This document shows positions 52,750 to 64,000 of a DNA stretch of 64,000 nucleotides, piece after piece. How positions within the stretch are numbered: the first letter of the stretch is position 1; every line of letters begins with the position of its first letter. The notes under the pieces were generated by a model that saw only the letters and a list, made by a program, of their open reading frames with translations, made no database searches and was not told the DNA's origin. The translations under genes were made by a program, and so were the position numbers. Source of the DNA: Brachybacterium timonense (GTDB taxonomy: Bacteria > Actinomycetota > Actinomycetes > Actinomycetales > Dermabacteraceae); NCBI RefSeq assembly GCF_900258505.1, contig NZ_LT984895.1, forward strand, positions 2,389,721 through 2,453,720. The letters run 5' to 3'.

Positions 52750-53397
52750 ATGACGATGCACCCGCCTCAGGGCCTGCCACCGCAGGACATCGTGGTGTTT
52801 CCGGTCCGTGGCCGCTCTTTGCTCCAGTTGCTGGTGGCGCTCATTGTGGGCGCGGTGTTCTTCGGCATCGCCGTGGCGATCGTGTACGCGGTCGTCACCA
52901 CCGGTGAGTGGATGTTCCTTATCGCGCTGCCGGTCATGGCGCTGGCCTTGATCGGCCTGTTCATCGACCAGTCAAAGAATCACCGCCGCGCTCGCACAGT
53001 TCGCCATAGCGAACCAGTGCTCGTGGTGAACAGTTATGGCATTGGAGACAGTCATCTGCACATTCCGTGGAGCGTAGTGCGCAGCGTCCATACGCGGGCC
53101 GCTCCGAGCAGGAGGTCGCCCGCTAACGACGGGTTGGGTGGAATTCTCGCGGAAAAGTTGGTCGCCTTCTCTGGCGTGCTCGACGGCGAGTTCCTGCTGG
53201 TCATCGACACGACGCATCCCCCACCGCCGCACCTCGCACAGCGCGGCGCATCGACGGTACGCGGCAACCACGTCGTGTACGACCTGGGCACAGCGATCCC
53301 GTCAGCCAGGTGGAAACCGTTGGAGCGAGCGATCACGCAGTACGCGGCCTGGCGGGGCGTGCCGGTCGGCGGCAGCGGTGTGCCGCCGCGGTCCTGA
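52750..53397 (+). CDS. Membrane protein with PH-like cytoplasmic domain, hypothetical
   Basis: A 215-residue protein with two membrane helices (about residues 25-50 and 57-76), then a cytoplasmic domain of beta-strand character (VLVVNSYGIGDSHLHIPWSV, FLLVIDTTHPPPPHLAQRG). The layout resembles bacterial PH-domain (DUF304-like) membrane proteins, but the match is weak. It follows the kdp operon by 51 bp and may be read from it. Role unknown. Confidence 0.6.
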   Translation: MTMHPPQGLPPQDIVVFPVRGRSLLQLLVALIVGAVFFGIAVAIVYAVVTTGEWMFLIALPVMALALIGLFIDQSKNHRRARTVRHSEPVLVVNSYGIGDSHLHIPWSVVRSVHTRAAPSRRSPANDGLGGILAEKLVAFSGVLDGEFLLVIDTTHPPPPHLAQRGASTVRGNHVVYDLGTAIPSARWKPLERAITQYAAWRGVPVGGSGVPPRS

Positions 53398-53472: not shown

Positions 53473-53530
53473 TCACAAACGCGGCACGGTGAACCGGAGC
53501 TCGACCGAGTTCTGGCAACGGCGACCATCA
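53473..53530 (-). repeat. EFRFNV-tail element, copy e
   Basis: On the minus strand it reads CQNSVELRFTV then PRL and a stop. ACGGTGAACCGGAGCTCGAC on the plus strand matches copy c at 63497 closely (22 of 25 positions over the core). It lies just after the truncated P-loop kinase frame. Confidence 0.6.
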
Positions 53531-53716
53531 CGGGGAACTGAGCGATGCTGTCTCAGAAACGCGACGCAGCGCGTCCTGCCTGACGAACGCGATGCCGCTT
53601 GGCCGGGCTACCAGGATGGCTTTGGCCAGGCTCGACTTCCCGCTACCGAAGCTACCGTGGATGATGACCAGCCAAGAGCCCTCCGAGCCGACGACCGTCG
53701 AGCTCGCGGAACTCAT
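53528..53716 (-). pseudogene. Truncated P-loop kinase coupled to higA
   Basis: A 62-residue frame with Walker A (IIHGSFGSGKSSLAKAILVA) and the second strand SGIAFVRQDALRRVS, after which normal kinases continue for about 100 residues. Here the frame ends in SETASLSSP right where tail element e begins. The ATG overlaps the higA stop by 4 bp, so it was part of the higBA transcript before it was cut. Confidence 0.65.
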
Positions 53717-54015
53717 GCCGACAGAAGAGGCCTGATCGCTGCGATCTGCTCCCCTGCACGATCCTCTGCACGGTCGAGCTCATAGTGGCTCTGCAGGTTG
53801 ATCCAGAACTCCGCCGACGTGCCGAAGTACTTCGCGAGCCGCAGCGCGGTGTCGGCAGTGATGCCCCGCTTGCCGTGCACGATCTCATTGATCCGCCGCG
53901 GCGGAACCCCGATCGAGACGGCGAGCTTGTTCTGCGTGATGCCGAAGCCCCGGATGAAGTCCTCCATGAGGACCTCCCCCGGGTGGATCGGCTTGATCCT
54001 GTCAGTGGTAGTCAA
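53713..54015 (-). CDS. higA: HigA family antitoxin
   Basis: A 100-residue HTH-XRE antitoxin: RIKPIHPGEVLMEDFIRGFG, the recognition region NKLAVSIGVPPRRINEIVHG and the conserved GITADTALRLAKYFGTSAEF. No ATG is available at the right place. TTG 54015 is the probable start, with GAGGAGG nine bases upstream, and it overlaps the end of higB by 14 bp. HigA neutralises HigB and represses the operon. Confidence 0.88.
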   Translation of the reverse strand: MTTTDRIKPIHPGEVLMEDFIRGFGITQNKLAVSIGVPPRRINEIVHGKRGITADTALRLAKYFGTSAEFWINLQSHYELDRAEDRAGEQIAAIRPLLSA

Positions 54016-54283
54016 CGATCTGCACCTCCTCGGGTCCGGCGTCGCTCCACACAAAGCAGATACGCCACTGGTCGTTGATCCTGATGCTGTACTGCCCGGC
54101 CCGATCACCCTTGAGGGCCTCGAGCCGGTTGCCGGGCGGGACCCGGAGGTCCTCGAGAGACTCCGCAGACCCCACCTGACGCAGCTTGCGCAGTGCGACG
54201 CGATGGATCCTCGGATCGATGGACCGCACGCGCTCACGACGCCACAGCCGTTCGGTCGCCTTGTCGCCGAACGATCTGATCAT
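54002..54283 (-). CDS. higB: HigB family toxin (RelE-like mRNA interferase)
   Basis: A 93-residue RelE-fold toxin with MIRSFGDKATERLWRRERVR, a central VALRKLRQVGSAESLEDLRV and the core GNRLEALKGDRAGQYSIRIN, ending in DQWRICFVWSDAGPEEVQIV. It cleaves ribosome-bound mRNA. Toxin-first order and the overlap with higA are typical of higBA. Confidence 0.9.
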   Translation of the reverse strand: MIRSFGDKATERLWRRERVRSIDPRIHRVALRKLRQVGSAESLEDLRVPPGNRLEALKGDRAGQYSIRINDQWRICFVWSDAGPEEVQIVDYH

Positions 54284-54316
54284 GGAGCCAATCTATAACG
54301 GGGGCCGTCATTAACG

Positions 54317-54400
54317 CTAGACGTTATACCTGAACTCAATCGAGTTACGGCACCGAAGAGCATGACGGATCACCACAGCCCAGGTCGTGAGGCCCAACGA
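54317..54400 (-). repeat. EFRFNV-tail element, copy d
   Basis: The minus strand reads TTWAVVIRHALRCRNSIEFR then YNV and a TAG. The core ACGTTATACCTGAACTCAAT differs from copy c mostly by silent changes. It lies between the GNAT gene stop (54405) and higB. Confidence 0.65.
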
Positions 54401-54404
54401 TCCT

Positions 54405-55379
54405 TCACAACGGCATGACCATGAACAAGCAGGGGTTGTCATCACCCCACAGATCAGTCTCCTCCAACGGCAGGAAACCGCACTTCTCGTAGAAGCGGCG
54501 GGTGCGGGCGTATCCAGCGTCGGAATGCGACGGCCCCAAGGTCTTCACTTGGAGCAGCCGGACACCATCGGCGCGGGAAGCGGACGCCACGGCCCTGAGC
54601 ATGGCCGATCCAACGCCCCGACCATGCCGGGCTCGGTCAACGACCATGAGGTGAATGTCGGCGGATACCGGGAAGTCGCGGTCGACCAAGGTCACGCCGA
54701 CGACCTTTCCGTGTTCGTCGCGCACAGACCACGTCTCCATGTGCCGGGCAGCGTCGATGTACTCCTGATTCGCTTCTTCCAGGCCGAACCACTCCGGGAC
54801 TGTCGCCAAAAGCCGCGCGACGTCATCCGGAAGCTGCGTGTCTCTGCGGCACTCCCAGAGTGATGGACGAGGACGCAATGCGCACATCTTCACGCTGTCC
54901 CAGCGTCGGCCGTTCCATGACCGTGCCTCGGGAATCCGGCCACACTCGACGAAACCGCATCGTCTCGCTGAGGCGATCATCCTCTCGTTGCCTGACCACG
55001 TCTGAAGGGTGACGACGTGAGCGTCAGTCTCGTCGAAGATCAGGTCGAGCCACTGGGTGAGCGCCGCCCGGCCGATACCTCTCCCCCACCAACGTGGGTT
55101 GAAGACCACGATGCCAAGCTCCCACCAGCCGCCGCCTGCGGGCTCCTCCTCGAAGCGCGAAACAAAACCAACAGGCTCTCCAGCGACCTCGATGATCCGA
55201 CGATCATGACTGCCTAATCCTGCACGTTGCCGCTGATCAAACTCCTCACGGCTGGGGTTCACAGGGGCCTCGAAGTAGGGCCCATCCCACAGCTTCCACT
55301 CGGCATCCGGCGTCGCGTGCTGCCAGGCCCACAAAAAGTCGAGATCATCGGCACTCACCGGCCGGAGAGTCACATTCAC
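54405..55379 (-). CDS. Tandem GNAT acetyltransferase, two fused domains
   Basis: A 324-residue protein formed of two GNAT modules. Residues 1-165 are RimJ/RimL-like (LRPVSADDLDFLWAWQHATP, LGIVVFNPRWWGRGIGRAAL). Residues 185-324 form a second module (DIHLMVVDRARHGRGVGSAM, with the QxxGxG/A-like RGVGSAM turn). Each has its own acetyl-CoA loop, but the acceptors are unknown. It lies between tail elements a and d, as one unit of the accessory region. Confidence 0.88.
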   Translation of the reverse strand: MNVTLRPVSADDLDFLWAWQHATPDAEWKLWDGPYFEAPVNPSREEFDQRQRAGLGSHDRRIIEVAGEPVGFVSRFEEEPAGGGWWELGIVVFNPRWWGRGIGRAALTQWLDLIFDETDAHVVTLQTWSGNERMIASARRCGFVECGRIPEARSWNGRRWDSVKMCALRPRPSLWECRRDTQLPDDVARLLATVPEWFGLEEANQEYIDAARHMETWSVRDEHGKVVGVTLVDRDFPVSADIHLMVVDRARHGRGVGSAMLRAVASASRADGVRLLQVKTLGPSHSDAGYARTRRFYEKCGFLPLEETDLWGDDNPCLFMVMPL

Positions 55380-55478
55380 TGCGCCAGCCTACCTCGGCCG
55401 AGACTGGAGACATCAGGCGCTTTCGTCTCTCGCCCAGATGGCGAAAGCGCCGCCGCTCGACGGCTCGGCAGACCGGAA

Positions 55479-55535
55479 CTACACGTTGAACCTAAATTCG
55501 ACGACGTATCGTTGCAAAAACACCTTCTCATTCGT
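55479..55535 (-). repeat. EFRFNV-tail element, copy a
   Basis: The minus strand reads FTNEKVFLQRYVVEFRFNV and a TAG. The core ACGTTGAACCTAAATTCGAC is shared with the other copies. No body of the parent gene precedes it. Confidence 0.65.
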
Positions 55536-55891
55536 GAATAGCAGCTAAAAACCACCACACCCCGCTATGTGCGGCAAAGATAGAGTGCACACCAGGTAGC
55601 CTCAGCCCCGCTCCTCGTGCAGCGGCATCCTTAAACAAGACATACATGGGATTCGCCCCACATACGATTAACTCAGGCTTCCGATGTCGCCCAAGCGATC
55701 CGTTGAAACTTAACCGAACGGTCCGTGCGGAATACTCGGCCATAAATGGGATTTATACGGCGGAAAGGTGGGCGCGAATGCATCAAACGTCCTGTCTGCT
55801 ACCTCCGCGTTCTACCGGTCCGACCACCTGCCGATGCACGATACCTGGACGCCAATGTTGGTGTAACCGCTTGACGCGTAGCATTGGCGAC
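55536..55891. other. Intergenic stretch without a supported gene, lower GC
   Basis: About 350 bp with visibly lower GC than the window average and stop codons in most frames. A minus-strand frame at 55528-55743 could encode 71 residues but has no recognised motif. The end holds the region before the DUF488 start at 55892. Confidence 0.4.
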
Positions 55892-56434
55892 ATGCGCATT
55901 TTCACCGTGGGCCACTCCAACCTCGAGTTCGAGGACTTCGCTGAAATGATCAAGGCTGCCGGTGTGGCATCCATCGTGGATGTGCGCAAGCTGCCCGGGT
56001 CCAGGAAGTACCCGTGGTTCAACGGCGACCCCCTTGCCGAACACCTTCCTACATGTGGCATCACTTACAGCAGAAGTGAGGGCCTCACCGGGCGGCGCAA
56101 CGTGTCCCACTCGGTGCCTTTTGAGGTTAACGGCAACTGGCGTAACCGCAGTTTCCACAATTACGCCGACCATGCGCTGGGCGGGGAGTTCTCGGACGCG
56201 CTCTCGCAGCTACGGGTGAACGCCGCCGAAACCCCCACCGCGATCATGTGCTCCGAGGCGGTGTGGTGGCGCTGCCACCGGCGTATCATCGCCGACCACC
56301 TCATCGCCCGCGGTGACGAGGTTGGCCACATTATGGGCCTGGGGGCAGCCGGGGCGACGGTGAACGAGGCAACGCTCAACGACGGCGCAGTCATCGGCAA
56401 CGATCTCCTCGTGCGCTACCCCGAGCGGAACTAG
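55892..56434 (+). CDS. DUF488 family protein (second type)
   Basis: A 180-residue protein with the DUF488 signature: FTVGHSNLEFEDFAEMIKAA, IVDVRKLPGSRKYPWFNGDP, the internal YSRSEGLTGRR and the CSEAVWWRCHRRIIADHLIA region with a Cys-Trp-Cys-His core. The biochemical role of the family is unknown. It is unlike the DUF488 gene at 10352, which belongs to the YeaO-like branch. It is on the plus strand while its tail-element neighbours read on the minus strand. Confidence 0.88.
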   Translation: MRIFTVGHSNLEFEDFAEMIKAAGVASIVDVRKLPGSRKYPWFNGDPLAEHLPTCGITYSRSEGLTGRRNVSHSVPFEVNGNWRNRSFHNYADHALGGEFSDALSQLRVNAAETPTAIMCSEAVWWRCHRRIIADHLIARGDEVGHIMGLGAAGATVNEATLNDGAVIGNDLLVRYPERN

Positions 56435-56675
56435 CGCGTACCCCAGAGGCCAGGGGTGCGGAAACTCGGACTATGCCTCAGGCGCGACCTACGCCTTGTA
56501 TTCATGGAGCGCCCGCCCCTTATGAGCAGCAGCATCGGAGGCACACCAGCGGATAGCACGCTCAAACGAGCTTTAGGTTAGGAAATCTGAACCCCTCAAT
56601 CTAAGAAGACCACCGGGAACCCCGGTAGTGCCCCAAAGCATCGAATCGAAAACTTGCTACCGACTTGCCACGGAC
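56435..56675. other. Intergenic stretch, no gene seen
   Basis: About 240 bp without a supported frame. A short hairpin, CACCGGG-AAC-CCCGGTAG, lies near 56610. It separates the DUF488 gene from tail element b. Confidence 0.4.
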
Positions 56676-56735
56676 CTAGACGTTGAACTTGAAGTCCACG
56701 ATATCTCGTTACAAAGTCACTCTCTCGTTAACACC
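56676..56735 (-). repeat. EFRFNV-tail element, copy b
   Basis: The minus strand reads VNERVTL, an in-frame TAA where copy a has glutamine, then RDIVDFKFNV and a TAG. The conserved end with a premature stop marks a decayed copy. Confidence 0.65.
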
Positions 56736-56756
56736 ACCAAAAGGAGCGTTATCCAA

Positions 56757-57003
56757 TGAAGCGTTCCGATTCTTAAGCTTCGGGCATTACGCCTTCGGTG
56801 GCCAGCGCGGGTCATCCGCGGAAAAGATCGCCAAGACTCATCTGGATCGCCCAGGCTGCGAACGAAATCGGCGTGAACGACGCGTCCTTTCGAGTCCACC
56901 ACTTCGTGCCGCAGGCCTCCGCCCCGATGCCGCTGCTCGGTGCTGTCGCGGCCACCACCAAACACATCGAGGTGGCCACCGGTGTCATCGACATGCGCTA
57001 GCG
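56757..57003 (+). pseudogene. LLM flavin-dependent oxidoreductase, N-terminal fragment
   Basis: After a ribosome binding site (AAAAGGAG) and ATG at 56757, the frame is broken within a few codons. Other frames then carry FRFLSFGHYAFGG and AQAANEIGVNDASFRVHHFV followed by PQASAPMPLLGAVAATTKHI and EVATGVIDMR. This is the N-terminus of luciferase-like monooxygenases. It stops exactly after IDMR, where the family continues YENPLY. The C-terminal part lies beyond the SulP-MerR pair at 59205-59870. Confidence 0.75.
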
Positions 57004-57094
57004 CATCTCATGGTTGTGACGTTGGATAGCGGCTGCCGCCCGCGGCTGCGCCGCGGTTGCCCCCGACGTGACCGACTGGCCCACCTGAGCCCTG

Positions 57095-58618
57095 TCAGTG
57101 ACCGTTGCCGAGTCCTCCCGTGAGTCGGGCGTGGAACGCAGTCGTGAACTCGTTCATCCCGACGAGCTCGACCGCCTTGCCGTGCTGTTCGTATTTGGTC
57201 TCGATTGCGTCGAGCGCCACGACGGTGGAGGCATCCCAGATGTGGGATCTCGTGAGGTCGATGATGACTCGGTCAGGGTCGTCGGCGTACTCGAACATGG
57301 TGGTGAGGTCGTTGCTGGAGGCGAACAGGAGCTGACCCTCGACTGTGTAATGCGCGATCCGAGCGCCATCCTGTTCAGTGATCTCACGCCTGACGTCGAT
57401 GAGGTGGGCGACGCGGCGCACGAACATCACAGAGGCGACGAACACGCCGACGACGACACCGACGGCGAGGTTGTGGGTGGCGACGACGACGGCGACGGTG
57501 ATGACCATGACGGTCGTCTCACTTTTAGGCATCCGGCGCAGGGTGGAGGGCTTGATGGAGTGCCAGTCGAAGGTACCTACGGAGACCATGATCATCACCG
57601 CGACCAGCGCCGCCATGGGGATGATCGCAACGATGTCGCCGAGGACGACGATGAGGGCCAAGAGGAACACACCTGCGAGGAACGTCGAGATGCGGGTGCG
57701 GGCCCCGGACGCCTTCACGTTGATCATGGTCTGCCCGATCATCGCGCAACCACCCATGCCGCCAAACAGGCCGGAGAGCAGGTTCGCGACGCCCTGCCCC
57801 CAGCTCTCCCGGGTCTTGTTCGAGTGGGTGTCGGTCACATCGTCCACGAGCTTCGCCGTCATGAGCGATTCCATCAGGCCTACCAGCGCCATCGCGAGGG
57901 CAAACGGCGCGATGATCGTGAAAGCCCCCCATGTCAGCGGCACATTCGGTATGAACAGCTCGGGAAGGCTGCGCGGCAGCTCACCCTTGTCGCCGACTGC
58001 GGGTACGTTGATCGAGAAGACGACCGCGGCGGCGGTCACCAGAGCGATCGAGACCAGTGGGGCCGGTATGACCTTAGTGATCTTCGGTATGAAGACCATG
58101 ATCAGCAGCCCGACCGCGACGAGGGGGTAGACCATCCAGGGCACGCCGATGAGTTCGGGCACCTGTGCCATGAAGATGAGGATCGCCAGCGCGTTGACAA
58201 AGCCGACCATGACGCTGCGCGGGATGAATCGCATGAGTCTGGCGACTCCGAAGACGGCGAGGAGGATCTGGAAGACCCCAGCCAGAAGCACCGTCGCGAT
58301 GAAGTAGTCCAAGCCGTAGTCGCGGGCGACGGGGGCGATAACGAGAGCGATAGCGCCCGTCGCCGCGGTGATCATGGCGGGTCTGCCACCGAGGAACGCG
58401 ATGGACACTGCCATCACGAATGAGGAGAACAAGCCCGCACGTGGATCGACGCCCGCGATGATCGAGAACGAGATCGCCTCGGGAATGAGCGCCAGCGCCA
58501 CGACCAGGCCTGCGAGAACTTCGCGAGTGAGGATGCGCGGGGTCTTCAGTGCGGTGAGCACCGACGGTTCGGGCCGGTACCGACCCTTGTCTTCTTTGGT
58601 CGCAGTGGGCAAGGCCAT
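57095..58618 (-). CDS. SulP family anion transporter with STAS domain
   Basis: A 507-residue membrane protein, a SulP (SLC26) transporter of inorganic anions such as sulfate or bicarbonate. It has the VVALALIPEAISFSIIAGVD start region, helices such as GGRPAMITAATGAIALVIAP and the signature LFGGMGGCAMIGQTMINVKA. The C-terminal STAS domain (residues about 400-500) contains RVIIDLTRSHIWDASTVVAL. It is divergent from a MerR-type regulator, with a palindrome in the shared promoter. The pair sits inside a broken flavin monooxygenase gene, so it entered by insertion. Confidence 0.93.
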   Translation of the reverse strand: MALPTATKEDKGRYRPEPSVLTALKTPRILTREVLAGLVVALALIPEAISFSIIAGVDPRAGLFSSFVMAVSIAFLGGRPAMITAATGAIALVIAPVARDYGLDYFIATVLLAGVFQILLAVFGVARLMRFIPRSVMVGFVNALAILIFMAQVPELIGVPWMVYPLVAVGLLIMVFIPKITKVIPAPLVSIALVTAAAVVFSINVPAVGDKGELPRSLPELFIPNVPLTWGAFTIIAPFALAMALVGLMESLMTAKLVDDVTDTHSNKTRESWGQGVANLLSGLFGGMGGCAMIGQTMINVKASGARTRISTFLAGVFLLALIVVLGDIVAIIPMAALVAVMIMVSVGTFDWHSIKPSTLRRMPKSETTVMVITVAVVVATHNLAVGVVVGVFVASVMFVRRVAHLIDVRREITEQDGARIAHYTVEGQLLFASSNDLTTMFEYADDPDRVIIDLTRSHIWDASTVVALDAIETKYEQHGKAVELVGMNEFTTAFHARLTGGLGNGH

Positions 58619-58761
58619 GCGGTACCTCCATCTGTTCAGGGCGGCGCTCTCAGGCCAGGAGCGGAGAATGTCTGGTGGTGCGCGACAACGTGCGGCTTCG
58701 CCTGGCGATAGATCGCCACGGCGGAGGCATGTCCAGTCTCATGTGGACACGAGAGTCAACA

Positions 58762-58776
58762 CTAACGTAACGTGAG
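58762..58776. promoter_or_regulatory. MerR-type operator candidate between SulP and MerR genes
   Basis: CTAACGTAACGTGAG is a 7-1-7 palindrome with one mismatch (CTNACGT and its complement). It resembles the CTCACGT-N-ACGTGAG sites bound by actinobacterial MerR-family proteins and lies in the 197-bp divergent region. Confidence 0.6.
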
Positions 58777-58815
58777 AGTTGTGTCGAACTGAGACGATGA
58801 GATGAGGAGGCCCCC

Positions 58816-59199
58816 GTGCCCGAAGCGGGAATGATGCACATCGGAGAGCTGGCTGAGCGGACAGCTCTGTCGCAGCGCACCATCCGCCACTACGACGAGA
58901 TCGGACTCTTGACACCCTCCGGACGCTCCGAGGGCGGGTTCCGGCTCTACACTGAGGGCGATCTCGGCAGACTCCTGCTGATCCGGCGCATGAAGCCACT
59001 GGGATACTCGCTCGATCAGATGGGCGACCTACTCCGGGCGCTCGACGGCGCAGATGGCGTCGGTGCTGCCGCCGAGAGCGCCCGGCGGGCGCTGAACGAT
59101 TTCCGCACCGACGCGGAGGAACGCCGCGCGAAGCTTGCCAAGCAGCTTGACGCCGCTGACGAGTTCATCGGCCTGCTCGCCGCGCACTCCTCGGACTGA
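58816..59199 (+). CDS. MerR family transcriptional regulator
   Basis: A 127-residue regulator with the MerR helix-turn-helix HIGELAERTALSQRTIRHYD, the wing EIGLLTPSGRSEGGFRLYTE and a coiled-coil helix ending near residue 115. It lacks the cysteines of metal-sensing members. GTG 58816 follows AGGAGG. Divergent to the SulP gene, it probably controls it and itself. The stop lies only a few bases before the resumed flavin monooxygenase fragment. Confidence 0.9.
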   Translation: MPEAGMMHIGELAERTALSQRTIRHYDEIGLLTPSGRSEGGFRLYTEGDLGRLLLIRRMKPLGYSLDQMGDLLRALDGADGVGAAAESARRALNDFRTDAEERRAKLAKQLDAADEFIGLLAAHSSD

Positions 59200-59204
59200 G
59201 TCGA

Positions 59205-59878
59205 AACAGACACACGATGCGCTATCTGTGCCAGCGAGGCCACTTCGAAGCGTTCATGGCTGCAGTGGACGGCAACGGATTCGCCACCGCCGCACCGCTG
59301 GACCGGCAGTAGCCCAACATATTCCAGCCCGGCTCCGCCCTGCCGGTCGTCCCCATGGTGCCCGAGCTGCGTTAGCACATTTCCTACGGCTCCGGCACCC
59401 ACGCTTCTGTCGAGCAAACCGCCGAGGACGGACTCAACCTGATGTCGTCCACTCTGGTCTCCGAGACCAACGCCGAGCCCCTGAGCGAAATCCAGGCAGA
59501 CCAGATCAGTCGCTACCGCGCCGCATGGAAGACGGCGGGCCATGCTTGGACGCCGCGCGCGTCGGTTTCGCGCTCCGTCTTCCCCATCGCTGACGGCGCG
59601 GACATGCAGATGTTCGGCATGCAGGCCACCGGCTCCGATCAGCTGGGCATGCTTCCCGACGTCGGCGCCTCCACCTTCGGTCGCACCTTCGCCGCTGAGC
59701 CCGACAAGCTCATTGAGCAGCTCAAAGCCGATCCCGCCGTCATGTCCGCCGACGCCCTGCTCATCATCATCCCCACCGGGATGGGCGTGGACGTCAACGT
59801 GAAGATTCTGGAGAACCTCGCCGCCCACGTCGCTCCCGCGTTGAGTGGCAACCGAACCACAAAGGATCAGTCATCTGC
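59205..59878 (+). pseudogene. LLM flavin-dependent oxidoreductase, C-terminal fragment
   Basis: The frame from about 59205 reads HFEAFMAAVDGNGFATAAPL, then has a TAG at 59310, PNIFQPGSALPVVPMVPELR and a second TAG at 59373. It then continues SYGSGTHASVEQTAEDGLNL, MSSTLVSETNAEPLSEIQAD and KLIEQLKADPAVMSADALLI to GVDVNVKILENLAAHVAPAL, after which the normal end is lost. It is the other half of the fragment at 56757-57003, and about 100 family residues between them are gone. Confidence 0.8.
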
Positions 59879-59944
59879 TATCCCATCGAGTAACTCCTGC
59901 AGGTCGCAAGCTCTTCGCTTCAATGTCAGTTCAGTGCGTTTGCG

Positions 59945-59972
59945 ATAGTTCAGTGGACACTGTATAGTTCAG
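59945..59972 (+). promoter_or_regulatory. cmtR promoter-operator region
   Basis: Two direct copies of ATAGTTCAG (59945-59953 and 59964-59972) flank the perfect palindrome CAGTGGACACTG (59951-59962). A TATAGT -10 box lies at 59963-59968, which puts transcription start at or near the ATG 59976, so the mRNA is probably leaderless. A repressor bound here would cover the -10 box. Confidence 0.6.
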
Positions 59973-59975
59973 CAC

Positions 59976-60335
59976 ATGCTGACTATTGCTTCACGCCTCG
60001 ACGTCATGAACCGGCTCGGCCGGGCCATGGCGGATCCGACGCGCTTCCTAATCCTGATGGCCTTGCTAGACAGCCCGAGCTACCCGGTCGTGCTTTCGCG
60101 CGACCTGGACCTGACCCGCTCGAACGTCTCGAATCAACTGAGCTGCTTGCGCGATTGTGGCATCGTCGTCGCCGAGCCGGAGGGCCGCAAGACTCGCTAC
60201 GAAATCGCCGATCCGCACCTCGCGGCAGCGCTCGACGCGCTAGTGAACGCGACGTTGGCTATCGACGAAAACGCCCCGCGCATCGCCCCCGAGTGCTCGG
60301 TGCCCGGCTGCGGCGAGAAAGGAGCGGACGCATGA
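59976..60335 (+). CDS. cmtR: CmtR-type ArsR/SmtB metal-sensing repressor
   Basis: A 119-residue winged-helix repressor. It aligns over its whole length with Mycobacterium tuberculosis CmtR, from the MLT start and RLGRAxADPTR. The sensing cysteines C57 and C61 are at the same positions (SCLRDCG), and a Cys-rich C-terminal pair C107 and C112 (ECSVPGC) stands where CmtR has C102. Cadmium or lead binding would release DNA. It overlaps the metal ATPase gene by 4 bp (ATGA) and its promoter holds a palindrome. Confidence 0.92.
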   Translation: MLTIASRLDVMNRLGRAMADPTRFLILMALLDSPSYPVVLSRDLDLTRSNVSNQLSCLRDCGIVVAEPEGRKTRYEIADPHLAAALDALVNATLAIDENAPRIAPECSVPGCGEKGADA

Positions 60336-62224
60336 GCTCGGCGTGTGGATGCGAACACGAACCAGCCGCGGAGATCGAAGATCTCGATCGGCCTTGGTGG
60401 AAGGACCCCGAGTTGCTACTGCCGATCTTCTCCGGCGTAGCCCTCATTACAGGACTGGCGCTGGATTGGTCCGACTTGGAGGCGCCCGCGACGGTGCTGT
60501 TTTGGGTCAGCCTGCTGTTGGGCGCGTACACGTTCGCGCCTGGAGCGATCCGGAACCTTGTCACGAAGCGAAAGCTCGGCATTGGTTTGCTGATGACGAT
60601 CAGCGCGGTCGGCGCGGTGATCCTTGGTTTCGTCGGAGAGGCCGCGGCGCTGGCGTTCCTGTACTCGATCGCCGAGGCGCTTGAAGACAAGGCGATGGAC
60701 CGGGCCCAAGGCGGACTGCGGGCACTGTTGAAGCTGGTACCGCAAACCGCGACCGTGCTGCGCGACGGTACGACGGCCGAGGTCGCTGCGAAGGACCTTG
60801 AGGTTGGCGAGCTCATGGTCGTACGCCCCGGGGAGCGGATCGCCACGGACGGCATCATTCGGTCTGGGCGCTCCAGCCTTGACACCTCAGCGATCACCGG
60901 AGAATCCATTCCGGAGGAGGTTGCGCCCGGCGACGAGGTGCCCGCGGGAGCAATCAACTCCGCCGGCGTTCTGGAGGTCGAGACGACTGCAGCTGGAACG
61001 GACAACTCACTGACCACACTCGTGGACCTGGTCGAGCAGGCGCAGGCGGAAAAGGGCGACCGCGCCCGGATCGCCGACCGGATTGCCCGCCCCCTAGTGC
61101 CCGGGGTGATGATCCTGGCGGTGCTGGTCGGCGTGATCGGCTCGCTGCTCGGCGACCCCGAGACGTGGATCACCCGTGCATTGGTGGTCCTGGTCGCAGC
61201 GTCGCCGTGCGCGCTGGCAATCTCCGTGCCTCTGACGGTCGTGGCCGCGATCGGGGCAGCCAGCCAGTTCGGAGTGATCATCAAGTCTGGCGCAGCGTTC
61301 GAGAGACTCGGCGGCATCCGCCACCTGGCAGTGGACAAAACCGGAACCCTTACCCGCAACCAGCCTGAGGTTACCGGAGTGATCCCGGCAGACGGATTCG
61401 ATCGGACGCAGGTGCTTTCCTTCGCGGCGGCAGTTGAGCAGCAATCGACGCACCCCCTCGCCGCGGCGATCGTGGCAGCGGAGCCCGAAGCGCCCACCGC
61501 CTTGGATATCAGCGAGGAAGCCGGTCATGGCATCGGCGGCACCGTCAAAGGCCGACGGGTACTTGTGGGCAGCCCCCGATGGATCGACGCCGGGCCACTG
61601 AAGGCGGACGTTGAGCGCATGGAGTCCGAAGGCCAGACCTGCGTCCTAGTCACCGTCGATGACGCTCTCGCCGGGGCGATCGGGGTGCGCGACGAGTTGC
61701 GGCCCGAGGTGCCCGATGCCGTGCAGTCCCTGCACGCCAACGACGTGGAAGTGAGCATGCTCACCGGCGATAACACTCGCACCGCCCGGGCGCTGGCTGA
61801 AATCGCCGGAATCGACGACGTGCGCGCCGAGCTGCGACCGGAGGACAAGGCAAGCATCGTCGCCGAACTCTCCTCCAAGACGCCGACGGCGATGATCGGC
61901 GACGGCATCAACGACGCGCCGGCACTGGCGGGCGCAACGGTGGGCATCGCGATGGGAGCGACCGGCTCTGACGCCGCGATCGAGTCCGCCGACGTCGCCT
62001 TCACCGGCCACGACCTCCGGCTAATCCCGAAGGCACTGCAGCACGCCCGCCGAGGCAGCAGGATCATCAACCAAAACATCGTGCTGTCTCTGGCCATCAT
62101 CATCGTGTTGATGCCACTGGCGATCAGCGGTGTTCTGGGCCTGGCCGCCGTCGTGTTGGTTCACGAAGTTGCCGAAGTCATCGTGATTTTGAACGGCCTG
62201 CGGGCTTCGCGAGCGAAACGCTAA
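60332..62224 (+). CDS. Heavy-metal translocating P1B-type ATPase with SPC motif
   Basis: A 630-residue membrane ATPase that exports metal ions. There is no N-terminal HMA domain, only a short Cys/His tail (SACGCEHEP). The transmembrane metal motif is SPC (VAASPCALAISVPLTV), not CPC, the phosphorylated aspartate is D335 in AVDKTGTLTRNQPEV, and TGES and GDGINDAPAL are present. SPC is the mark of the P1B-4 group, and the last helix carries LVHEVAEVIVILNGL. Coupled to cmtR by a 4-bp overlap, it likely exports cadmium, lead or cobalt. Confidence 0.93.
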   Translation: MSSACGCEHEPAAEIEDLDRPWWKDPELLLPIFSGVALITGLALDWSDLEAPATVLFWVSLLLGAYTFAPGAIRNLVTKRKLGIGLLMTISAVGAVILGFVGEAAALAFLYSIAEALEDKAMDRAQGGLRALLKLVPQTATVLRDGTTAEVAAKDLEVGELMVVRPGERIATDGIIRSGRSSLDTSAITGESIPEEVAPGDEVPAGAINSAGVLEVETTAAGTDNSLTTLVDLVEQAQAEKGDRARIADRIARPLVPGVMILAVLVGVIGSLLGDPETWITRALVVLVAASPCALAISVPLTVVAAIGAASQFGVIIKSGAAFERLGGIRHLAVDKTGTLTRNQPEVTGVIPADGFDRTQVLSFAAAVEQQSTHPLAAAIVAAEPEAPTALDISEEAGHGIGGTVKGRRVLVGSPRWIDAGPLKADVERMESEGQTCVLVTVDDALAGAIGVRDELRPEVPDAVQSLHANDVEVSMLTGDNTRTARALAEIAGIDDVRAELRPEDKASIVAELSSKTPTAMIGDGINDAPALAGATVGIAMGATGSDAAIESADVAFTGHDLRLIPKALQHARRGSRIINQNIVLSLAIIIVLMPLAISGVLGLAAVVLVHEVAEVIVILNGLRASRAKR

Positions 62225-62543
62225 GGCTGTGACCGGCAAGTCTCATAAGGGTTAAACCACACGCCAAGCGAACGTACCTTGGGCCAGGCACGTCATTCGA
62301 ATTCTCGGTCCGTCTCCGTGGAATCGGGATCGTCCTTGGCGGCCTGGCCCTTCTCGCTGCGTGCGGGCACGGGGGCCGTGAGCGAGCCCCCCGGCACGTG
62401 CCCCATCCGGTCAAGGGCCTCCGAGCGCTCCGCGTCTCGAACGCAGATCGTGGAAGGATCGAACTGCTGAGAGACCAAGCGTCATTGCAAAACTCTTTCC
62501 GGCCCGCAATTTGATTAGTTCAGCGGCCTTATACCGCGGACAC
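62225..62543. other. Intergenic stretch with no supported gene
   Basis: About 320 bp after the metal ATPase. A minus-strand frame at 62293-62478 could encode 61 hydrophilic residues (MVSQQFDPSTICVRDAERSE and onward), with no recognised family and a doubtful start. It may be a decayed tail. Confidence 0.4.
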
Positions 62544-63310
62544 TCATTCGAAGTGCTGCCGAGCTTCATCGACACGGCCACCGACTACCTGGGCAAAGTG
62601 TTTGACAAAGGACCCCACACCCTTCAGCGTTGCCGAGCCCTCGCCGGTCCAGTTGCCGTAACCGACCACATGCAGATTCTTCACCGCGGTTTCGCAGCCG
62701 CGCATGAGGCGGCGGGATGGACGAGGGCCGAACGACAACCAGTGCACCCGATCAGGTGGTCGTGGTCGAGCTCGCTCTAGCTATCGAGGATGGGAGTAGG
62801 TGAGCTAACCGGGGTTGAGGAGCTCACGTAGATGAGGGAGCGCGATAACGCCTCCGAGGTTTGAGCCGGAATCGCCGCCGAGAATCCGGCGGCAGCTGCG
62901 AAAAGAGAGATCGCGGCCACCGACATCACCAGGCATCCAGCGCGACCGCTCGAGTGTGAACCATGTGACCTCCGACGGCGGTCGAATCGAGGTCGAACAT
63001 CCCTCCCACATGGAATACGCAACGAACGTGCACTGGACGCCTAACCGCGAGGCCATACCGTCGTTCGTAGCTTTCCAGATAGTCGGTGGCATTGCGTGCC
63101 GGCGGGTACTCAGGGTATTGAGGTAGAGGCCAACCGGGCAGATTGGAGAACTCCGCGGCGGAGAAGTGCCTCTGTGAAGGCCACGCGTGCAACCACGCAC
63201 CGCCGGGTTCGCCTTGGTTGTCTCAGGCCGAGAAGTCCACTTTGAAGCGCCGCAGGTAGTATGCCGTAGCTAGGCCGGACGGGCCACCATCGACGGCGAT
63301 CGCCGTGTGA
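62544..63310 (-). pseudogene. ArsO-like flavin-dependent monooxygenase, decayed
   Basis: Three minus-strand fragments in different frames follow the order of an FAD-dependent monooxygenase of the ArsO kind. They are the FAD loop DGGPSGLATAYYLRRFKVDF near 63225-63285, HAWPSQRHFSAAEFSNLPGW and PLPQYPEYPPARNATDYLES near 63060-63190, and the end LHVVGYGNWTGEGSATLKGV near 62600-62660. Frameshifts and stops separate them. Such enzymes occur in arsenic or metal resistance loci, in line with the neighbouring cmtR-ATPase pair. Confidence 0.65.
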
Positions 63311-63493
63311 TGCTCAGCCCATCGATCACCCCTCCGTAGTCTCCCGAATGCACAGGGAGGGGAGCTTGGCAGCGTTAGTAAATAACCCCCATCGCGCTCT
63401 CGATTCCACAATCCTTCAGCGCCCTTGTCGGCGAACGAATGGATCGCGCTTCAACCTACCCCCAATAACGCGAAGCGTCATTGATGCCCCGCG

Positions 63494-63560
63494 TTACACG
63501 TTAAACCGGAACTCGACCGAGTGACGAAACCGTTGAGCGAGATAGATCAAGCGTGCACAG
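63494..63560 (-). repeat. EFRFNV-tail element, copy c
   Basis: The minus strand reads ARLIYLAQRFRHSVEFRFNV and a TAA. The core ACGTTAAACCGGAACTCGAC is nearest to copies e and d. It lies just upstream of the VOC gene at the window edge, about 7 kb from copy b. Confidence 0.65.
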
Positions 63561-63635
63561 GCAGTAGAGGGATGCAGCAGGACGGCCGCTAGCTAAGGAC
63601 CGAGAGCCTCCGACAACCTGGCCTAAACTCCACAT

Positions 63636-64000
63636 ATGACCAACCCCGTGCACCACATAGAGTTATGGACCACCGACCTGCACGCGTCCGCAGCTTCTTT
63701 CGATTGGCTCCTCCCCCTACTCGGGTGGCAGGCCCAGCACGATCCAAATTGGCCACGAGGAAGGACGTGGACTCACCCAAGCGGGGCATACGTGGTGCTG
63801 GAAGAGTCGCCTGCTATCACGGGCCCACACGACCGCATGCGAGCTGGACTGAATCACCTCGCCCTCCGCGCGAAAGATCGAACACTTCTCGATGAACTTC
63901 AACGGCAGTGCTCACGCCACGGGTGGACTGAGTTGTTTGCCGACAAGTACCCACACGCTGGCGGGCCTGAGCACACCGCTCTCTTCCTCGAAAACAGCGA
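63636..64000 (+). CDS. VOC family protein, partial (runs off the window)
   Basis: ATG 63636 opens a frame with no stop before the window end. It reads MTNPVHHIELWTTDLHASAA, then SFDWLLPLLGWQAQHDPNWP, GAYVVLEESPAI and GLNHLALRAKDRTLLDEL. This is a single glyoxalase-fold module (first metal histidine in HHIEL) of the antibiotic-resistance/glyoxalase type. Only the first 121 residues are visible. Confidence 0.8.
   Translation, partial: MTNPVHHIELWTTDLHASAASFDWLLPLLGWQAQHDPNWPRGRTWTHPSGAYVVLEESPAITGPHDRMRAGLNHLALRAKDRTLLDELQRQCSRHGWTELFADKYPHAGGPEHTALFLENS

Follow-up and report, generated by a model that had tools for sequence, protein, structure and literature searches.

Tandem gene units behind ychF in Brachybacterium timonense and the candidate serine-integrase attachment sites that separate them

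Repeats, ychF and gene units at the locus

The window considered here is a stretch of 64,000 nucleotides from Brachybacterium timonense (contig NZ_LT984895.1, positions 2,389,721 to 2,453,720), towards the end of which five copies of a short repeat separate small groups of accessory genes downstream of the gene ychF. All five lie on a single strand, the minus strand (core starts at 53486, 54321, 55483, 56680 and 63498), as a preliminary description of this DNA had reported, and their peptides read exactly as given there: NSVELRFTV, NSIEFRYNV, YVVEFRFNV, DIVDFKFNV and HSVEFRFNV. The core pattern with up to three mismatches found four of them (54318, 55480, 56677 and 63495) and nothing in 100 shuffles; the fifth (53486) was recovered by a longer pattern, which had no match in shuffles either. 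A 68-bp profile applied to positions 50,280-70,279 found the five window sites and three outside the window, at about 64,098, 66,026 and 67,924, the last of these being the end of ychF. The reversed-sequence control of this profile gave no match across the 4.7 Mb of all loci, and among all loci searched there was no profile site on the strand opposite to the array or upstream of a visible ychF. In the host genome, the core pattern at up to three mismatches occurs at 22 places, against 11 for the reversed pattern. The seven matches with 0-2 mismatches, five of them in the window and two outside, are confined to a single stretch of 14.4 kb, and the 15 with three mismatches look like chance, weak single matches meaning nothing. 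These 15 are about as frequent as the reversed control (11 in all), which could be taken to favor fortuitous repeats, but the concentration of the seven closer matches and the empty shuffles and controls contradict this. The related idea that each copy is the real 3' end of a different gene is opposed by the copy that ends an intact gene, ychF, in the searched stretch, and the probability of either explanation is negligible.

The gene in question lies beyond the window. The outermost copy (about 67,924) is the true 3' end of an intact minus-strand gene at window coordinates 67,901-69,031 (L024:4622-5752), whose product ends GKDYVMRDGDVVEFRFNV and matches YchF-GTPase_C (Pfam PF06071) at 2.3e-37; the nearest named YchF comes from a Brachybacterium metagenome-assembled genome (MAG), at 89%. 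The VEFRFNV-stop tail is therefore the C-terminus of YchF. The intact ychF is located 3.9 kb past the window, with two more copies between, and the remark that no copy has an intact gene body upstream thus holds in the window. The other copies retain the ychF tail on one side and have different DNA on the other; since that DNA is a second conserved arm (P arm), R-N often precedes the tail outside ychF. The earlier suggestion, that DNA was repeatedly joined to the 3' end of one gene and left attachment sites or gene tails behind in a layout like that of integrons, is supported, and a full-length gene ending in the tail does exist. The integrase expected just outside the window was not found there, and the integron-like reading needs correction in that the implied enzyme is a large serine integrase rather than the tyrosine integrase of integrons.

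The five putative attachment sites, all on the minus strand, differ in preservation. Site e (53483..53538) consists of a P arm at 53506-53538, a central dinucleotide at 53504-53505 and a ychF-like half that extends to 53483; it encodes VELRFTV and scores 36.6 bits with the profile. Sites d (54318..54373, central dinucleotide 54339-54340, IEFRYNV, 61.3 bits), a (55480..55535, central dinucleotide 55501-55502, VEFRFNV, 45.7 bits) and c (63495..63550, VEFRFNV, 49.3 bits) score higher, and site b (56677..56732, VDFKFNV, 22.7 bits) is degraded. The constraint on these tails was studied in 89 sites selected by the neighboring P arm alone, after the exclusion of seven half-sites of another type (P') from 96. 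Positions 1, 2 and 3 of the E-F-R-F-N-V codons depart from the consensus in 0.157, 0.107 and 0.339 of cases, and in all six codons it is the third position that varies most. The claim that differences between copies are largely synonymous stands as far as these third positions are concerned, but 97 non-synonymous changed codons accompany the 137 synonymous ones. The pattern would be explained if the tails had formerly served as the C-terminus of YchF and then decayed after displacement. In seven loci (L036, L042, L099, L158, L168, L261 and L273) the tail of ychF itself is of a GLTS type, not FRFNV, and apparently comes from the inserted element. Insertion close to this gene has been described elsewhere, as two reports on pneumococcus mention prophages beside or upstream of ychF (PMC8637289, PMC10383233).

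The units between the sites carry one or a few genes each. The 835-bp unit between sites e and d (53505..54340, minus strand) encodes a HigB toxin (54002-54283; Pfam HigB-like_toxin, 9.2e-19) and a HigA antitoxin (53713-54012; HTH_3, 3.9e-10), and the following 1,162-bp unit (54340..55502, minus strand) a two-domain GNAT acetyltransferase (54405-55379; Acetyltransf_1, 1.1e-22). A 1,197-bp unit (55502..56699) has a DUF488 protein open reading frame (ORF) at 55646-56434 on the plus strand, opposite to ychF (DUF488, 4.9e-26). The 6.8-kb unit at 56699..63517 is composite: according to Pfam it holds a SulP permease (57095-58618, minus strand) and a MerR protein (58816-59199, plus strand), followed on the plus strand by an ArsR-like gene (59976-60335) and a CadA-like metal P-type ATPase ORF (60155-62224), these two names having been assigned by look. 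The window ends within a 581-bp unit (63517..64000 in the window, far site at about 64,098), in which a VOC/glyoxalase-like gene starts at 63636 on the plus strand (Glyoxalase_4, 8.7e-10). On the other side of the array, neither the protein at 52750-53397 nor the histidine kinase has a relative among 125 related loci, and the ancestral far flank could not be traced.

Half-sites, crossover point and neighboring integrases

The place at which units join was studied by comparing homologous units. In the best pair (L156 unit 1 and L164 unit 5, 3.6 kb, 99.7% identical) the mismatches abut the central GT, before it on the left and after it on the right. In a second pair (L150|4 and L156|0) the match stops directly behind GT at the right junction and no more than 4 bp from it at the left. 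One pair has homologous DNA, ychF itself, on both sides of the left junction. None of the eight pairs other than the best outright excludes a crossover at the central dinucleotide. An uninterrupted site is visible in the comparison of genomes G408 and G430, which match up to the end of ychF (89.6%); a 4.9 kb array then follows in G408, and from the displaced tail onward the two are again alike, at 98.0% over 6.5 kb, ychF having an uninterrupted end in the sister genome G430.

The two halves of the sites can be distinguished by the position of a motif. AACSTST peaks at offset 19 from the center in 96 halves selected by their P arm (none above threshold in the control) and is found at offset 14 in 93 sequences of the ychF-like halves (B' halves, from FRFNV ychF ends), a comparison that amounts to evidence and not to a blind test, since the sites had been seen before the motif was chosen, and sequence containing it served to select the half-site sets. 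In the Listeria LI integrase system, the zinc-ribbon motif lies 5 bp nearer the center in attB than in attP (PMC3783163), and the difference between 14 and 19 is this same 5-bp shift. It follows from these offsets that in-array junctions are hybrids of a P half and a B' half. Of the 96 halves, seven turned out to be P' halves taken from the opposite strand: three lie at ychF ends (L158, L168 and L274) and four inside the array of G423. As they were caught by selection on the P arm, P and P' are alike. In a set of seven P' halves fused to ychF with a GLTS-type tail, AACSTST is also best at offset 19. In G423 (L168) the four internal junctions with P'-type, GLTS-coding halves instead of FRFNV lie at about 2158, 2688, 4623 and 5472 on the ychF strand. 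They escaped the profile, which was trained on B' halves, so that arrays may hold more units than were counted.

Integrases occur beside these sites. A search of viral contigs with the ychF tail returned 16 contigs, and in five phage-like ones (L216, L217, L220, L223 and L226) a protein of 449-470 aa starts 32-47 bp from the GT and reads away from it; all five proteins match Resolvase and Recombinase domains. PHROGs matches in these contigs include a terminase (L226), primases (L216 and L223) and an exonuclease (L217), and L226 also has a tyrosine integrase across the site from the serine integrase. The same arrangement is found in chromosomal loci (L262, L263 and L264; G623, G664 and G636), with ychF outside the stretches examined in the three G-numbered genomes. 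The integrases found measure 449-518 aa overall. In Schaalia (L042) and in G624, integrase homology follows directly after a ychF that ends VEFRTGLTSKK. A displaced RN-AVEFRFNV tail is present in L042 at 20,593, 9.5 kb on, with relaxase (PF03432, 6.2e-12) and primase-like genes between; its integrase has one internal in-frame stop as assembled, and the element looks like an integrative and mobilizable element (IME). G416 has a whole integrase between ychF and the array, and N-terminal integrase fragments adjoin sites in G402 and G407. In a phylogeny that left out L042 and these two fragments, the ychF-site integrases form one branch together with that of G703 (support 100/98), separate from three other serine integrases of the genus; neither ychF nor a site is in view in G703. 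Like the phage serine integrases of the A118/LI type, the system combines Resolvase and Recombinase domains with inverted half-sites, a central dinucleotide and the 5-bp motif shift. Relatives among phage records are distant: 244 of 50,697 match the integrase, none at 60% identity or above, and the 25 matches listed range from 33 to 44%, with Microbacterium phages at the top. INPHARED and PLSDB yielded distant integrase relatives only, and an exact-pattern scan of the viral contigs with the full P-B' site gave no match. Four viral contigs (L215, L218, L221 and L230) have a ychF-like tail beside a tyrosine-integrase-like protein of 249-271 aa; they apparently belong to a separate lineage for which the 3' end of ychF is a target as well.

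The P-arm score separates most of these sites from ychF ends. The latter score -6.7 +/- 3.6 (maximum 0.2, n=103), eight of nine integrase-adjacent or element-end sites score 1.8-19.1, and the sites beside the integrase fragments of G402 and G407 reach 23.5. A background taken at GTGGA across six of the array loci has a mean of -14.9 and a 99th percentile of 28.2, but it contains real sites and is of little use.

The identity of the neighboring enzymes bears on the possibility of a true integron, with a tyrosine integrase (IntI) and attC sites, or of a cluster of attC sites lacking integron integrases (CALIN). The tandem small units, the toxin-antitoxin cargo and the single orientation of the sites are reminiscent of such systems, and attC clusters without an integrase exist (PMC8618304). 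Nevertheless, it is a serine integrase that adjoins the sites, the breakpoint of the best pair spans 2 bp, and the array loci gave no tyrosine-recombinase match with a model that, being seeded on Xer-like proteins, could miss others. The sole match of this kind is weak (E 0.0017) and belongs to L089, which shows no array, and G405, G413 and G414 have sites yet just two PF00589 matches each. An integron origin is scarcely credible in this context. A reading of the core as attC, based on GTTRRRY-like letters, was dropped because the tail is that of YchF and the neighboring enzymes are serine integrases. A tyrosine-recombinase core with inverted arms around an 8-bp spacer was likewise dropped, given the serine integrases beside the sites and the GT breakpoint.

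Spread of the sites and exchange of units

In the genus, a 32-base pattern covering the arm and the tail (up to three mismatches) matches 32 of 38 genomes and its reversed form none of the 38; by hand count, 27 of the 38 have at least one site other than ychF itself. The expectation that the elements would recur in many strains with different genes between them is thereby borne out. The strict pattern is not common in the phylum, with seven of 396 genomes, the host included, matching at up to two mismatches. With a 68-column profile built from 74 sites, 38 loci gave 131 matches scoring more than 12 bits, and the reversed sequences gave none. Eleven of 80 named ychF loci have a further site or sites at 20 bits or more: Demequina (L030, L039 and L041), Brevibacterium senegalense (L040), Schaalia (L042), Cellulomonas (L068, without the second arm), Nesterenkonia (L069), Prauserella (L070), Janibacter (L078), a Propionibacteriaceae MAG (L091) and a Nocardioides MAG (L104). 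The 116 intervals measured between sites, 78 of them in loci of the genus, have a median of 1,254 bp; 83 are shorter than 2 kb and 84 fall between 0.6 and 2.5 kb.

Homologous units recur across genomes in 19 pairs (more than 75% of length, identity 73-99.9%), which are not independent, several being in one cluster. Neighbors could be compared on 16 of 38 sides of the shared units and differ on all 16. A 3,597-bp unit is 99.7% identical between G405 and G416, and one of 1,111 bp is 99.3-99.5% identical in G399, G405 and G431. Homologous recombination through flanking DNA could have spread such units with the tails as passive passengers, as the arrays adjoin a core gene and related genomes have flanks in common. 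Yet, the neighbors of shared units are non-homologous wherever they are comparable and the match stops at GT in the best pair, which makes this route very unlikely.

The best explanation, and very likely the right one, is that the repeats are attachment sites of large serine integrases, with the 3' end of ychF as attB, and flank small exchangeable units; a phage-type serine integrase probably inserted those of the window downstream of ychF. Read in the direction of ychF, an array would comprise the B half of ychF, GT, a B' half, genes, a P half, GT, a B' half, genes, a P half and so on, where B' would be the ychF-like tail (about GGAGTTCCGGTTCAACGTGTA) and P an element-type half-site (about CAGAGGTTGGTCCGTGCCGGAACGCG). 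Crossing over at this shared GT would place a new unit beside ychF and supply a new C-terminus, so that ychF would remain readable and the older tail would be pushed outward. The integrase-bearing phage-like contigs and the IME-like element would use the same ychF site, and most units (about 0.6-2.5 kb, integrase-less and with one or a few cargo genes) would probably have been moved in trans by the integrase of a visiting element, or be remnants of elements that lost theirs. We infer the enzyme that moved the units of the window, a circular intermediate and a recombination between attB and a hybrid P-B' site.

Several observations weigh against this explanation. The usual reaction of serine integrases recombines attP with attB, whereas the one proposed here would pair attB with a P-B' hybrid, and no excision or circle was observed. 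The GT breakpoint is exact in just one of nine pairs, in four pairs the right junction shows 1-3 mismatches directly to the left of GT, L153|1 and L164|0 are out of register at the right end, and 10 of 89 sites lack a GT center (GT 79, AT 4, GG 3, GC 2, GA 1). The integrase-adjacent site of L262 has a P-arm score of -0.9, inside the range of ychF ends. The P-arm score is also flat with rank from ychF (rho -0.06, p 0.59), the first site being above the last in 17 of 25 arrays; ordered insertion beside ychF is therefore not supported, and neither is polar decay along arrays, site quality showing no change with distance from ychF. Finally, the host genome has no whole ychF-type integrase, just a 106-residue partial match at 42% identity, besides one PF07508 recombinase elsewhere that the ychF-type integrase query did not match, and five of the ten array-bearing genomes checked (G405, G412, G415, G432 and G398) have no PF07508 protein. 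It is from these absences that movement in trans, or by an enzyme since lost, is inferred.

Alternatively, the units could be nothing but decayed islands, cis-mobilizable elements (CIMEs) eroded from larger integrase-bearing elements and immobile themselves, the arrays resulting from serial accretion followed by deletion. The integrase fragments adjoining sites in G402 and G407 fit this scenario, as do the degraded sites of the window and a hydrolase-like gene of its array seen only as overlapping ORF pieces, and accretion and decay are a published route to such tandems (PMC5704250). Nevertheless, small units are nearly unchanged across genomes (1,111 bp in three, 3,597 bp in two) with different neighbors wherever these are comparable, and G405, which shares such units, is without any PF07508 recombinase. 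Decay as the whole explanation is possible but rather doubtful. A more specific form of the serine-integrase explanation would make the arrays a counterpart of integrons, in which hybrid-site cassettes are mobilized in trans by phage or IME integrases, enter the attB of ychF, rebuild its C-terminus and regenerate the target; we give this proposal slightly less than an even chance. Each cassette would then hold one hybrid site, with an attP-type half at one end and a ychF-like attB-type half at the other, each insertion would restore the target so that the array could keep growing, and cassettes may arise by imprecise excision of elements that take along the genes following ychF in the donor.

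Related systems and cargo

The ychF arrays resemble integrons in function and are constructed like accretions of staphylococcal cassette chromosome (SCC) elements or CIMEs, SCC at rlmH being nearest in build and CIME accretion nearest in concept. The Ccr enzymes of SCC are large serine recombinases. In one description of SCC, a recombinase inserts DNA at the 3' end of rlmH (orfX), a conserved protein gene that stays functional; direct repeats encoding the terminal residues split the tandem units, some of which are without recombinase genes (PMC4723332). The ychF arrays share with SCC and pseudo-SCC elements the 3' end of a gene kept functional, the tail-encoding direct repeats, the tandem units and the lack of a recombinase in some of them, but they occur in another phylum, target ychF instead of rlmH, involve phage-type integrases and consist mostly of small units of one or a few genes. 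The Schaalia L042 element, with integrase homology, a relaxase and a displaced tail at the same ychF site, recalls the accretion of CIMEs and IMEs. The described cases are larger and mostly based on tyrosine integrases, whereas the ychF arrays involve a serine integrase and consist of many small units that are reshuffled between species. Tandem small units with one site each, toxin-antitoxin cargo and possible action in trans are shared with integrons and CALINs as these are portrayed in one source (PMC8618304), from which the ychF arrays differ by the absence of a detected IntI, the half-site layout of serine integrases and a coding gene as anchor. Searches of open-licence full texts brought up no description of such cassettes, or of serine integrases, at this end of ychF, an absence that is weak evidence. 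If the proposal is true, a recombinase of unrelated chemistry can also give rise to gene capture of the integron kind. The sites would also offer a searchable entry to exchangeable actinobacterial cargo (toxin-antitoxin, restriction, metal-transport, acetyltransferase and resistance-like genes) and make directly testable whether a serine integrase can build arrays through attP-attB hybrid sites.

The cargo of the window has relatives at other ychF loci. Among the 125 related loci, HigB relatives are found in 22, including Cryobacterium (L064) and Actinomyces massiliensis (L086), where the unit begins within 50 bp of the ychF end, and the GNAT gene has partial relatives, corresponding to its second half, in arrays L151 and L171. 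Part of the metal-transport unit (2.5 kb) is 91% identical to Gulosibacter hominis L057:12307-14843, 1.2 kb downstream of the ychF end, with shorter matches closer to ychF; this suggests a recent transfer between distant relatives. Further cargo according to Pfam includes LtrA, short-chain dehydrogenase, TetR, RibD_C, transposase and restriction-modification genes. An aminoglycoside-adenylyltransferase-like gene (PF10706) occurs at L150:13259-13753, in a unit that also has HigBA, and the unit next to ychF in L184 carries a gene for a member of the PADLOC candidate family PDC-S06 (L184:11544-13865, 9.1e-199). The host site at about 66,026 has AT as its central dinucleotide; a segment of about 440 bp (L152:10937-11381) is situated at a point matching this site, with AT instead of GT at the center in both.

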